From contig JAGAOU010000044.1 of assembly GCA_017623595.1 (NCBI GenBank), positions 1 through 64,000 of the forward strand: 64,000 bases of DNA, read 5' to 3'. The notes under the pieces are model-generated. The model worked only from the letters and a program-made list of their open reading frames with translations, searched no databases and was not told the DNA's origin. Of this stretch, positions 31,348-46,943 are shown in pieces. Position numbers and translations under genes: made by a program. This DNA is from Clostridia bacterium. Its GTDB lineage: Bacteria; Bacillota; Clostridia; Oscillospirales; UBA644. Numbering within the stretch: position 1 is the first letter of the stretch; each line of letters starts with the position of its first letter.

Positions 31348-32400
31348 ATGAAAAAGAAATTTTCCTTTGTACTTTGCCTGTTGATTGTGTTGCTTTGTTT
31401 TTGTTCCTGTGCTCCGCAGGCGGCTTCGGACGGAACTTCCGACGGTTCCACCGATTTGGCAGCAGATGCGACGCAGACGGAAAAGAAGTTGCCGCAGAAT
31501 CCTCCATACGGTCCCCAACCGTATACTTACGACAGGGAGAATCGTACCGTTCTTTCGGATGAAGAACTTTCCCGTATTCCTTCAGCAGATGTGACAGGTG
31601 CTTGGATTTATCGAGATTCCGACGACGGGGATGAGGTTTCTTTTTCAAAGAATTTTCCTTATTCGTATCCGGGCACAAAGGTGGAGGATGCCGTTCCGCC
31701 CGAGAATGTGCGGAACTGTTATCTCTTAAATGGGAAAAAGGTGTGGGGAACTTATAAATCCACAATGCGAGCGGCCCATGATGCGGGAACGACCTATCAT
31801 GTGTATACCGTTGATGGGGGTGGAACCTTTGGCTTGACTGAGGACGGAAAGCTTTGTACGTATCGGTATCCGGCAAAGGGCGATGCCCCTTATCAGGGGG
31901 ATCTTGATCGTGTTTTGTCTCGGGGGAAAATGATTTACGAAGAATTGTCCGGGATGGAATCAAGCCGTGTAATTGCCGAGCAGCGCATGGACGATTCCGG
32001 CGGTTGTGTTATATATTTGTACAACTATGCGTTTCTTCCCCGTGAGGCGTTTGTTGACGGCACGCCTATGGCTACTTCCTATGAGTTGGTTTTTGATAAG
32101 CGTCAGCAGACGCCATTCAGTCTGACATATTTTCCCAAAGAATATTCCGACGAAATGAGAAATGTTGAGGTTGCTACGGCCGGTATTGCGGCAGCAATAC
32201 AGGAAACACGCTTTATGGTGGAGCAGCAAGGGAAGGCGTTTCGTCGCGTTTCTGCGAAATATTCCGGCCATTTTATTGGCGAAGACGGTGAATTGTATGG
32301 CATTTATACCGTTTCCTTTGCTTTGACAGATGAACTTCCCCAACTTTTGACGACATGTCAAGTGGCCTGCCGTCTAACAGGTGAAAATGCGGTAGGGTAA
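31348..32400 (+). CDS. Lipoprotein of unknown function
   Basis: The 350-residue protein has a lipoprotein signal (MKKKFSFVLCLLIVLLCFCSC, acylated Cys about 21). A Ser/Thr/Asp linker follows, then a soluble domain with many aromatic residues and alternating strands (GTTYHVYTVDGGGTFGLTEDGKLCTYRYPAKG; GGCVIYLYNYAFLPREAFVDGTPMATSYELVFD). I recognise no domain. The next gene encodes another exported protein and starts 18 nt later, so they are one operon. Confidence 0.72.
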   Translation: MKKKFSFVLCLLIVLLCFCSCAPQAASDGTSDGSTDLAADATQTEKKLPQNPPYGPQPYTYDRENRTVLSDEELSRIPSADVTGAWIYRDSDDGDEVSFSKNFPYSYPGTKVEDAVPPENVRNCYLLNGKKVWGTYKSTMRAAHDAGTTYHVYTVDGGGTFGLTEDGKLCTYRYPAKGDAPYQGDLDRVLSRGKMIYEELSGMESSRVIAEQRMDDSGGCVIYLYNYAFLPREAFVDGTPMATSYELVFDKRQQTPFSLTYFPKEYSDEMRNVEVATAGIAAAIQETRFMVEQQGKAFRRVSAKYSGHFIGEDGELYGIYTVSFALTDELPQLLTTCQVACRLTGENAVG

Positions 32401-32418
32401 GGAAAGGAGAAGATGTGC

Positions 32419-33690
32419 ATGAAAAAAATCTCCGGACTGTTGCTCGGAATCGTGTTCGCTGTTTCCTGCTTTGTTCTTCCCTCCTTTGCCATTTCTATGG
32501 TGCAGGATACCTACGATACATTGGAAGAATATGAAGCCTACCTTGCGGAACAAGATGATCTTCCTCCCAATTTTGTGCGTTATGAAGAACTTGCACCCTT
32601 CGGCGAATTTGAATCCTTTGTTCCGGTTGCCCAGGTTTTTGCTGTTGATGAGCATAAAAAGTACTACTATCGTTTGAAGGATGAAAACAATATCTCATAC
32701 ACTATCACGATCTATTCCTATGATTACGGGGATTATCCTGAGGAGAACTTGCCTTTGGAAGGGGAACTTGGGGAAGACCTTCGTACGCATCCTTCCGGAA
32801 CGGACGGTTATGTGGTAGTTGGTGATGCGGTGTATGTTTATGATGTCGGAATTTTGAAGCGCATTGTTTGGTTCCGCAATGGGTTAAGCTTTACCTTGTC
32901 TGTTCCCTCCGATTATCCTGCAAGGGAAAAGAATACCGTTGTTTCAAAGCTTTTGTCCCAATCCGCTTCTTCTGATGCGTTGGAATTCTTTTCTCCCGAA
33001 GTGCCCTTGGAAACACGCTTTTCCGTCGTGAAAGGGGAGACTGCTTTTCGGGCGTATTTGGAAGATTCTTGGCAGCCCGAAGGGTTTTTCCTGCCCGAAG
33101 ATTTTGCAGCCCTCGGGACATTTGAGTGCTTTTGGCGTATTACCGATTCGCCTGCGGATTTCAGCCGTTATGCCTATTCGTTCCTTGACAAGGAAGGCCT
33201 TCGTTGGTTTGTGAAAGTTCTTCCCAATGAAATCCCTCATAACCATGAATATTGTGTAGCGGCACCGAAGTCAAAGGATTTGTATCATATTGGGTATACG
33301 TTCCCAAGCTGTTACTATTCGTTGGGAGATTACTGTTATCTTTTTGATAATACCGGTTTTCGTCATATTTTGTGGATTGAGGGGGATATCCGGTTTGAAA
33401 TACACTGTTCCTCCGAATATCGGAATGTAAAAAAGTATAATGATGAACCCTCGCCTATCTTTTCGCCCGCAAAGGCGGAGAGTGTTTTAAACAGTCTTGC
33501 CCGAACCGGTTCCCATGGAAAAGATTCTCTTGATGTTCCTACGGATTCAAGTTTTGAATCTTCAATTTCCACTGTCGATGTAGGTCAGTGCGATGGGGTA
33601 TCGTTGTTCCTTACGATCGGGATCGTAACTCTTCTTGTTGTCGGCGGGGCGGTGACTGCAATCTTCTTATTGAAGCGAAAGAAAGCATAA
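32419..33690 (+). CDS. Exported, C-terminally anchored protein of unknown function
   Basis: The 423-residue protein has a signal peptide (MKKISGLLLGIVFAVSCFVLPSFA), a large extracellular part, a Ser-rich stalk and a C-terminal membrane helix (SLFLTIGIVTLLVVGGAVTAIFLL) followed by KRKKA. The outer part contains two similar halves: APFGEFESFVPVAQVF at about 54-69 and AALGTFECFWRITDSP at about 233-248 open comparable stretches, followed by YYRLKDE and AYSFLDKEG. This indicates an internal duplication. No family recognised. ATG 32419 is preferred over ATG 32413 by spacing from AGGAGA. Confidence 0.72.
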   Translation: MKKISGLLLGIVFAVSCFVLPSFAISMVQDTYDTLEEYEAYLAEQDDLPPNFVRYEELAPFGEFESFVPVAQVFAVDEHKKYYYRLKDENNISYTITIYSYDYGDYPEENLPLEGELGEDLRTHPSGTDGYVVVGDAVYVYDVGILKRIVWFRNGLSFTLSVPSDYPAREKNTVVSKLLSQSASSDALEFFSPEVPLETRFSVVKGETAFRAYLEDSWQPEGFFLPEDFAALGTFECFWRITDSPADFSRYAYSFLDKEGLRWFVKVLPNEIPHNHEYCVAAPKSKDLYHIGYTFPSCYYSLGDYCYLFDNTGFRHILWIEGDIRFEIHCSSEYRNVKKYNDEPSPIFSPAKAESVLNSLARTGSHGKDSLDVPTDSSFESSISTVDVGQCDGVSLFLTIGIVTLLVVGGAVTAIFLLKRKKA

Positions 33691-33697
33691 TTTATCA

Positions 33698-33736
33698 GAG
33701 AGCTCTCCGTTCTTTTGCGGAGAGTTCTCTTTTTTT
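33698..33736 (+). terminator. Terminator of the exported-protein pair
   Basis: A 12-bp stem (33698-33709/33718-33729) followed by T7. Confidence 0.85.
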
Positions 33737-33820: not shown

Positions 33821-33849
33821 TTGACAACAGTCGGAAAATATGCTATAAT
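33821..33849 (+). promoter_or_regulatory. Strong promoter of the large RNA
   Basis: A full-consensus TTGACA (33821-33826), 17 nt, TATAAT (33844-33849). Transcription would start near 33856. No reading frame follows it for about 700 nt. Confidence 0.85.
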
Positions 33850-33855
33850 AAAGCC

Positions 33856-34553
33856 ACAAAGAAGAGAACCCCCGACAGGAGGAAATCCTCAATCAGCGCC
33901 AAAGGGTGCATAGCGTCGGAGAGGAAATCTTTGTAGTCAGGAGACGAGGAGTATGAGAAGTCCCAACATTTGATCAGGGTTGCCCGACAAGGTGTCGCGG
34001 TACCCCAAAACGACTTACCCGATCCGATAAAACCGGCCGTGATCCGAAAGGAGACGCGAAAGATGAGAAGCCCCAACATCTGAGTTGGGAGCCGTAGCAA
34101 AGGGTTACGGTATCCCAAACAAATCACCATTAAAAACCGGTCGTTCCCCGGAAAGGAGAACGGGAAATGAGAATTCCGAAAAAGTAAGACGGGTCGCTCC
34201 GTAAGAGGCGGTGCGTCCCTTGAAATAGTAACCCCCGGTCCTTCCCCGTAAGGAGAAAGGAAGAGGAGTATGAATCTTCAGAAATTCATGAAGCTTCAGA
34301 CCGAATGAAACGGGGATTCGGATAATTCGTCCGAATTCCTGCCCAATCAAAACATCGTGTTTTTCCATGAGGCTTGACTCCCATGAAGTAGTTAGATCCG
34401 CACATGCCGTGCGGGGTCGGGAAAACCGACAGGCCCGAATCTATGAAAGAGGTACGGACCCATGTTTTGAGTTGATCCGCGGCGATCTGGAAGCCGTGAG
34501 TTGAGACTAAAATTAAAAATAAGTCAAAGGGCTGTCGCTTATGCGGCAGCCCT
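33856..34553 (+). ncRNA. Large structured RNA built from four diverged ~100-nt modules (unassigned class)
   Basis: About 700 nt of non-coding sequence follow a consensus promoter. The 5' part can form a junction: CCGAC/GTCGG (33872-33876/33915-33919) enclosing two hairpins (33877-33889, 33896-33909). Four modules follow, marked by AGGAGA at 33939, 34049, 34154 and 34251. Modules 2-4 begin with a hairpin whose outer stems differ but pair (CGT/ACG, CGTTC/GAACG, CCTT/AAGG) and whose inner end is CC-GNNA-type loop-GG. An ATGAGAA-like purine linker follows. A second hairpin then covaries in all four: 33977-34005, 34085-34118, 34191-34219, 34314-34339. The 3' part has further hairpins (34395-34418). 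Size and complexity recall the ROOL/OLE/GOLLD classes, but I cannot match it to any. The 3' end is uncertain. Confidence 0.72.
34528..34553. terminator. Shared terminator of the large RNA and the facing operon
   Basis: An 11-bp stem with a TTAT loop. On the minus strand it is followed by TTTGACTTATTTTTAATTTT, on the plus strand only by CAGTTTG, so it is better suited to the minus-strand operon. Confidence 0.65.
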
Positions 34554-34605
34554 CAGTTTGTCGATAAACCCCAAAAAGAATCTTTTTGTCTTATACAATC
34601 CTTTT

Positions 34606-34971
34606 TCATTTTCTGTTGTATCTCTTTTTACAGAAGGAGCAAAGCTCTTTTCCGTTTTCGACGGCATCTCGAAAGGTTTGACCGATAATCGTTTTGGAGC
34701 GGGAAAGGGAAGAGCAGTCTGTATACAGATGAAATTTTGCTCCCGATGCGGTGACATAAACAATATCCGAATCCTGTAGTTGAGGATATCCCTCCGGGAT
34801 CGGTTTTTGCTCCACAGCTTCTTCCCACGGTGTCTTCTCTTCCAGCTCCGCACCTGCCTCTGCCACAGAGCGCTCATGGATACCCTGCCCGATGCCAATG
34901 GCTATTACGGCAATAAAGGCAATCAGCAATACTCCGATGACACAGATGCTTTGCAATCGACGGTGGCTCAT
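34606..34971 (-). CDS. Small membrane protein with a C-terminal His-Cys3 metal site
   Basis: The 121-residue protein has one N-terminal membrane helix (about 8-29), an acidic/proline linker and a short globular domain with His81, Cys86, Cys111 and Cys114 (FHLYTDCSSLS ... LCSFC). This is the spacing of the small H-x4-C...C-x2-C domain seen at the ends of some nucleases and phage or competence proteins (domain recognition by motif only). Its ATG overlaps the stop of the ribbon-helix-helix gene (ATGA). It converges on the large RNA. Function unknown. Confidence 0.72.
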   Translation of the reverse strand: MSHRRLQSICVIGVLLIAFIAVIAIGIGQGIHERSVAEAGAELEEKTPWEEAVEQKPIPEGYPQLQDSDIVYVTASGAKFHLYTDCSSLSRSKTIIGQTFRDAVENGKELCSFCKKRYNRK

Positions 34972-35147
34972 TGTTCACTGTCGGGAATTATCCCGTTTTG
35001 CGCCTCAAAGGTGCGGATGTATTCTTCCAGAATGAATTCGATTTCCTTGTTTTCCGATCTCTTGTGGGTTGCGGCGATCACCTTCAGCTTGTGGTGCATT
35101 TCTTCCGAAATCCGCAACGAGAAGGGCTGATAATATTTTCCGTTCAT
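34968..35147 (-). CDS. Ribbon-helix-helix DNA-binding protein
   Basis: The 59-residue protein has the Arc/MetJ form: a beta strand (QPFSLRISEEMHHKLKVIAATHKRSENKEIEFILEEYIRTFE) followed by two helices. ATG 35147 follows GGGGAAT; a longer frame to 35177 lacks a site. It is translationally coupled to the membrane protein at 34606. Such small repressors often control their own operon or belong to toxin-antitoxin-like pairs; no toxin family is recognised. Confidence 0.75.
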   Translation of the reverse strand: MNGKYYQPFSLRISEEMHHKLKVIAATHKRSENKEIEFILEEYIRTFEAQNGIIPDSEQ

Positions 35148-35315
35148 AATTGATTCCCCGTTTCCATTTTTTTCCACTTTCTTATTATAACATATAATTG
35201 CAATCTTTAAGAATTCAATTTGATGTCAAATTTTTAAAAATTTGTGTGCTTCTTCCTCTTTTTGTTTTTGTTTTCCCGATTTTTCTTTCTTTTTTTGAAT
35301 TTTCCTCAAAAACAA

Positions 35316-46573: not shown

Positions 46574-46667
46574 TTCCGCATTTGTCCGACGGAGGAATTT
46601 CTTTTGTGAATTCACACCCTGAGTAGGGGCTTGAATAAATAACTTTTTCTTAAAAGGAGAAAAGAAA

Positions 46668-46943
46668 ATGAATAAGTTTGAACTGATCTCTGCCGTTGCC
46701 GCAAAGATGAACATCTCTAAGAAGGATGCTACCGAATTTTTGAACTGCACTCTGGATACCATCACCGAAACCCTCGCTGCCGGTGACAAGGTTCAGTTGG
46801 TTGGCTTTGGTAACTTCGATGTTCGTGAAAGAGCCGAAAGAGAAGGCCGCAATCCTCAGAAGCCCGAAGAAACCATTAAGATTCCCTCCACTAAGGTTCC
46901 CGTCTTCAAGGCCGGCCGTATCCTGAAGGACGCTGTGAAATAA
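46668..46943 (+). CDS. hup: DNA-binding protein HU
   Basis: The 91-residue protein has the HU/IHF fold: MNKFELISAVAAKMNISKKDATEFLNCTLDTITETLAAGDKVQLVGFGNFDVRERAEREGRNP, with the DNA-minor-groove arm GRNPQKPEETIKIP and C-terminal FKAGRILKDAVK. It bends and compacts DNA. AAAGGAGAA precedes ATG 46668. It is placed before the RqcP-like, yabP, yabQ and divIC genes, a common Firmicutes order. Confidence 0.96.
   Translation: MNKFELISAVAAKMNISKKDATEFLNCTLDTITETLAAGDKVQLVGFGNFDVRERAEREGRNPQKPEETIKIPSTKVPVFKAGRILKDAVK

Follow-up and report, generated by a model that had tools for sequence, protein, structure and literature searches.

A structured RNA of about 700 nt encoded in the window, which is the whole 64,000-nt stretch of a Clostridia bacterium contig that was analysed, appears to carry six tiny genes. 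They consist of 6, 6, 6, 12, 2 and 2 codons and are each preceded by a ribosome-binding site; the peptides of ORF1-6 are MRSPNI, MRSPNI, MRIPKK, MNLQKF-MKLQTE, MK and MF. Several tandem ORFs (two for MRSPNI, one for MRIPKK and one for a doubled hexapeptide) thus specify near-identical peptides on one RNA. Judged from the sequence, ORF1-4 are very likely to be real and translated, and with slightly more reserve we consider this likely for the six micro-ORFs as a whole. Our confidence is lower than for ORF1-4 in the case of the two-codon ORFs, where the argument consists of the conservation of the Shine-Dalgarno sequence (SD), the start and the stop.

The initial annotation had described this region as a non-coding RNA without any gene, in which AGGAGA recurs at positions 33939, 34049, 34154 and 34251. 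AGGAGA is present at all four positions, but it is an SD with a short ORF behind it. AGGAGA, 7-8 nt and ATG make up an SD and a start codon, and the invariant core of each module consists of an SD and a micro-ORF. What had been taken as an ATGAGAA-like RNA linker is likewise the start of a micro-ORF under amino-acid-level selection. The modules would therefore repeat because a translated cassette repeats. The ORFs and the first SD are located as follows.

33939..33944, + strand: SD of ORF1, AGGAGA, with 9 nt from AGGAG to ATG
33953..33973, + strand: ORF1, MRSPNI-stop; the same peptide in five species, with its three variable sites all in third codon positions
34063..34083, + strand: ORF2, MRSPNI-stop; MRNPNI in one species, cassette missing from one
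34167..34187, + strand: ORF3, MRIPKK-stop; MKIPKK and MKIDKK in relatives, with SD, start and stop kept in five species
34270..34308, + strand: ORF4, MNLQKF-MKLQTE-stop; a doubled six-codon unit with 7/10 variable sites in third position (0/5000 shuffles)
34383..34391, + strand: ORF5, two-codon minigene MK-stop; GAGG 9-10 nt upstream, present in 5/5 species with TAG/TGA stop interchange
34462..34470, + strand: ORF6, two-codon minigene MF-stop; GAGG 9 nt upstream, MC-stop or GTG TAC stop in relatives

The codons of ORF1 are ATG AGA AGT CCC AAC ATT TGA. A synonymous arginine change from AGA to CGC was observed in ORF2 of one species, and the stop of ORF3 interchanges between TAA and TGA. ORF4 (its sequence in module 4 is MNLQKFMKLQTE) is a direct repeat in which both halves begin with ATG, and the internal methionine is kept in 5/5 species without an SD. 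The AGGAGA of ORF4 occupies 34251-34256, while a better-spaced SD, AAAGGA, lies just 3' of it. In ORF6 the SD, start and stop are kept across species and the second residue is not, which suggests that the act of translation is conserved there rather than the peptide.

An alignment of five congeneric species of one genus was scanned blindly for start-stop pairs that are conserved and span no more than 12 codons. The scan returned the six micro-ORFs together with the internal methionine of ORF4 and nothing else, and each of the six is preceded by an SD wherever it occurs among the genomes. The identical scan of the reverse strand of this alignment gave no conserved start-stop ORF, and no longer conserved ORF was found on either strand of the RNA region. 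Column shuffles, which do not preserve local clustering of conservation, yielded a single SD-led ORF in 1/3000 cases and a two-codon SD-led ORF in 0/3000. The window sequence alone contains three strict SD-led ORFs, a number reached 3 times in 20,000 dinucleotide shuffles.

Within ORF1-4, the variable sites are distributed as 4/4/15 over the three codon positions, with 15 of 23 in the third (p = 0.0017). Amino-acid differences number 30 compared with 79 +/- 8 in shuffles (0/5000); in the two alternative frames they number 97 and 87. Tested singly, ORF1 (p = 0.012), ORF2 (p = 0.0018) and ORF4 (0/5000) are significant whereas ORF3 is not (p = 0.17). Since only five species of one genus are compared, these statistics rest on few independent changes. 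Stops were observed to swap among TAA, TGA and TAG without loss in four of the six ORFs. Conservation is highest on the ORFs (93% for ORF1, 90% for ORF3 and 91% for ORF5), with linkers at 58-73% and the 3' tail at 47%.

These results make it very improbable that the RNA is a non-coding scaffold or particle whose SD-ATG-stop patterns are accidental or serve as binding motifs. Although the strong fold and covariation described below would suit such an RNA, six conserved SD-led start-stop pairs are found where about none is expected by chance, the codon-position pattern and the stop interchange are those of coding sequence, and the ORFs exceed the hairpins in conservation. The earlier idea of a scaffold that binds several copies of one partner can be retained only insofar as the repeated partner would be the ribosome, and no test result speaks for the pseudo-symmetric RNA particle that had also been suggested.

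The structural part of the initial annotation was borne out. The 700-nt transcript folds with z = -5.6 (0/20 shuffles fold equally well), and four diverged modules of ~100 nt with covarying helices are present in an autonomous RNA. Its structure appears to be under selection, as homologues with compensatory changes were found in the congeneric species. The structural elements are listed below.

33872..33919, + strand: 5' multi-stem junction with a conserved GAGG-AAAT-CCTC hairpin; compensatory changes in the closing stem
33977..34006, + strand: stop-proximal hairpin 1; covariation, beginning 3 nt past the ORF1 stop
34038..34058, + strand: SD hairpin 2, with the SD AGGAGA (34049-34054) in its 3' arm
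34087..34116, + strand: stop-proximal hairpin 2; covariation, 3-nt spacing
34142..34162, + strand: SD hairpin 3, with the SD AGGAGA at 34154-34159
34191..34219, + strand: stop-proximal hairpin 3; covariation, 3-nt spacing
34240..34260, + strand: SD hairpin 4, with AGGAGA at 34251-34256
34312..34339, + strand: stop-proximal hairpin 4; compensatory changes, 3-nt spacing
34397..34430, + strand: two hairpins 3' of ORF5; compensatory changes

The SDs of modules 2-4 sit in the 3' arm of a small hairpin whose arms change yet still pair, as had been noticed from the single sequence. The arms are CGTG/CGCG, CGTTC/GAACG and CCTT/AAGG, and these hairpins have counterparts in relatives. A comparable weak SD hairpin occurs in module 1 of some species only. 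The second hairpin of each module was also said to covary, and this was confirmed for 14 modules from five species: 94.9% of cells are paired compared with 84.2% in shuffles, double changes number 16 against 5, and the covariation score is 0.549 against 0.314 (0/500 shuffles for each measure). The 5' junction and the 3' hairpins that frame the repeats both carry compensatory changes.

The spacing between stop and hairpin was observed to be fixed. Stop-N3-(G/C)GG is found in 19/19 modules, with GGG in 18 and CGG in one, and the three spacer bases are free to vary. At the sequence level, this stop-N3-hairpin order supplies a feature of leader-peptide attenuators, namely a short ORF followed by an alterable structure. 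The stop-proximal hairpins are not attenuators on the evidence of their sequences, which have no U-tracts, and neither an intrinsic terminator nor a sequestered gene RBS was found as an output of the cassettes, no gene RBS following them. A UGA read-through element (SECIS-like) was considered and rejected, as TAA or TAG also serves as the stop in two of the four ORFs with a hairpin and in both minigenes, and hairpin indels break any shared frame.

The ends of the transcript are defined by the following features.

33821..33849, + strand: promoter TTGACA-N17-TATAAT with extended -10 TG; 12/12 consensus match
33856..34556, + strand: predicted transcript of about 700 nt, its start inferred from the promoter and its end from the hairpin at 34528-34553
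34528..34553, + strand: GC-rich hairpin (inverted repeat), probable terminator; found in 5/5 species

The promoter had been called perfect, which it is in the window, and it is common to 5/5 congeneric species with a single -10 change in one. A strong terminator (33697-33730) stands after the end of the upstream gene, and the genes 3' of the RNA are on the opposite strand up to 35375. From this upstream terminator and the opposite-strand genes downstream, the RNA is evidently a standalone transcription unit, despite the modest U-tract of its probable terminator on the + strand. The same hairpin has a longer T-rich tail on the minus strand and may also serve the convergent gene for a small Cys-containing protein, so the terminator is perhaps bidirectional.

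No regulated gene was found 3' in the same transcript (the genes there are convergent, the probable terminator lies between and synteny is kept), and with no co-directional gene downstream the RNA is no ordinary leader. A multi-ORF leader or attenuator whose regulated gene was lost or is reached by read-through is accordingly improbable. Each cassette does resemble a stalling leader ORF followed by a hairpin, and tandem leader ORFs exist in mgtCBR (PMC3641672); however, the next + strand gene begins 0.8 kb past the probable terminator with its own promoter-like site, the intervening genes are on the minus strand and convergent in five species, and the cassette hairpins have no U-tracts.

We propose that the RNA is an array of ribosome-engaging cassettes in which the nascent peptide, the stop codon and the hairpin set the dwell time of the ribosome, a reading to which we give an even chance. 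An autonomous, strongly transcribed and structured RNA would then work by being translated. The main cassette would consist of a weak SD hairpin, an ORF of 6 codons (or 2 x 6 codons), the stop, 3 nt and a hairpin clamped by GGG:CCC, and two SD-led two-codon minigenes would come after the main cassettes. The ribosome would open the SD hairpin and synthesise the hexapeptide, and by standard ribosome geometry the GGG:CCC clamp would have to be opened in the translocation step at which the stop codon enters the A site. In the solved hexapeptide case, MsrDL (MYLIFM), the ribosome stalls at the stop and covers the first half of the next hairpin (PMC10314930). The dwell time at the stop may similarly be set jointly by peptide identity, stop codon and hairpin, and ribosome occupancy would alter how the RNA itself folds, how long it persists or how it binds its partners, so that it could act in trans as a sensor of, or a sink for, translating ribosomes. 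Since there is no gene in cis, the output has to be exerted in trans, either by the RNA or by released peptides.

This one model covers the conserved peptides, the two-codon ORFs with a free residue, the SD hairpins and the fixed register. It counts against the model that neither MRSPNI nor MRIPKK contains a recognisable arrest motif of a known kind. The comparisons show coding selection on the micro-ORFs, the SDs, the stop-to-hairpin register, the covariation and the autonomy, from which we infer actual translation, dwelling and an output in trans.

The dwelling model is placed slightly ahead of a micropeptide polycistron, neither being proven. According to the latter, which we regard as a serious though lesser possibility, the RNA would be an mRNA for finished hexapeptides (MRSPNI twice, M[R/K]IPKK and a doubled unit, M[N/K]LQxF-MK[L/I]QTE) that function once released, either as leaderless signals or as ligands inside the cell, with the hairpins tuning initiation and stability. 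The peptides are indeed kept through synonymous changes, including that of arginine from AGA to CGC, one peptide is encoded twice, and a strong promoter is combined with the absence of a gene in cis. However, peptides this short have no export signal, and both the exact 3-nt stop-to-hairpin register and the two two-codon ORFs, one with an unconserved second residue, would be left unexplained. A dual-function regulatory RNA that pairs with target mRNAs, in which translation of the micro-ORFs only protects from decay, has a very small chance of being correct. Such an RNA would be autonomous and structured with a strong promoter, as seen here, and ribosome loading can protect RNA, but protection alone would not conserve amino acids or the stop-hairpin register.

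Homologues were found in 4/4 congeneric genomes examined, with best-matching stretches 74-81% identical. The genomes with the RNA are metagenome-assembled genomes of uncultured ruminant-gut Clostridia. Genes for L-fucose isomerase and a GDSL-like protein lie on one side, and on the other are those for the small Cys-containing protein, a ribbon-helix-helix protein, a CitMHS transporter and a serC-like aminotransferase, although contig ends cut some syntenic neighbours in relatives. Two predicted lipoprotein/membrane genes without a Pfam family (31348-33690, + strand) lie between the GDSL-like gene and the RNA; this pair was not found in two relatives (G003 and G004), where the GDSL-like gene is the upstream neighbour of the RNA. 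The convergent neighbour at 34606-35177 (- strand) comprises the ribbon-helix-helix protein and the Cys-containing protein. The latter is apparently membrane-anchored, has no Pfam family and is 39-48% identical among congeners compared with 77-96% for the nearby serC and CitMHS.

A covariance model of modules 3-4 was searched against 20 genomes of the family (including the genus), 394 of the order and 391 of the class, and only the five genus members were recovered. The weak matches inspected were mostly terminators, with a further terminator in G007 on a contig that also carries a Cys-protein homologue, and one was a CRISPR array (repeat GTCGCTCCGCCTCACGCGGAGCGTGGATTGAAAT, L054, G346 contig C6), a false match. 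The best non-member matches inspected are ribosome-binding sites of ordinary genes, for example HU. That of the HU gene (AAAAGGAGAAAAGAAAATG, 46644-46705, + strand) is one of the best non-member matches and nearly identical in four congeners, and the matches ~10-12 kb from the array are such HU sites and not further modules. A pattern of an SD plus an MRSPNI-like ORF was found in 20 stretches among ~85,000 species, four being the known congeneric genomes, with no further member. Three of the remaining 16, chosen as the most plausible, were inspected and lie inside ordinary genes, while the others come from unrelated phyla in a number that fits chance expectation. Another candidate cluster of micro-ORFs (L077) falls within a gene that appears to be an ordinary coding one. 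Blastn of the RNA in phages and plasmids returned nothing, and in viral contigs two patterns gave one candidate match each and a third none. The locus is thus syntenic and apparently genus-restricted as far as searched.

Rfam models at the gathering threshold gave no match over the region, and a relaxed threshold gave chance matches only (best E 0.26). No Rfam family is matched, ROOL, OLE, GOLLD and HEARO included. ROOL, GOLLD and OLE are comparable as large ornate RNAs of similar size from Bacillota; here, in contrast, Rfam is not matched and the core is very likely translated. SgrS and RNAIII are dual-function bacterial sRNAs in which a structured RNA also carries an ORF. That ORF is single and longer, whereas the present RNA has six micro-ORFs as repeating units. 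The insect gene tarsal-less/polished rice/mille-pattes carries tandem 11-aa ORFs and resembles our case in having tandem tiny ORFs for near-identical peptides on one transcript. It differs in being eukaryotic, with longer peptides, another motif, no SDs or hairpin register and no homology. An SD with a two-codon ORF is found in the lambda bar minigenes. The axe-txe mini-ORF has the same composition (PMC8708949). Unlike in both of these, the two minigenes here end an autonomous RNA behind six-codon cassettes. A eukaryotic precedent for one such cassette is the MAGDIS uORF (PMC4505036).

MsrDL and mgtM/mgtP (PMC3641672) share with our cassettes an SD and a very short ORF with residues that matter, and the MsrDL type also shares a hairpin directly behind the stop, with a 5' arm that could be covered by a dwelling ribosome (PMC10314930). 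Those ORFs, however, precede in cis a gene that they regulate through a terminator or RBS, whereas the four cassettes and two minigenes here make up a transcript of their own, which no gene follows and whose cassette hairpins have no U-tracts. No described class of autonomous RNA with repeated SD-hexacodon-stop-hairpin cassettes was found in Rfam or the freely accessible literature; as far as checked, the parts are known and the arrangement is not. Tentatively, we suggest a new class of autonomous bacterial RNA, with translated cassettes of fixed geometry and two-codon minigenes, that would park or count ribosomes and act in trans through a ribosome-dependent fold.

If this holds, a bacterial transcript that any annotation rule would class as non-coding would be a polycistron of six-codon and two-codon genes, and a natural system would lock nascent hexapeptide, stop codon and hairpin in one repeated geometry. 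It would then be directly testable whether ribosome dwelling on micro-ORFs can drive a trans-acting RNA. Should the peptide reading be true, the RNA would fit better among small-protein mRNAs, as an extreme variant. Gene callers miss ORFs of such size, which here had been taken for RNA structure; in practice, an 'ornate' RNA with repeated AGGAGA/ATG cores should have these examined for coding capacity before it is labelled a scaffold. Elsewhere in the window, a Gut-1 RNA (Rfam RF01706) was observed at 1-69 and 104-185 on the - strand, where it is cut by the window edge and adjoins a tRNA-Leu.
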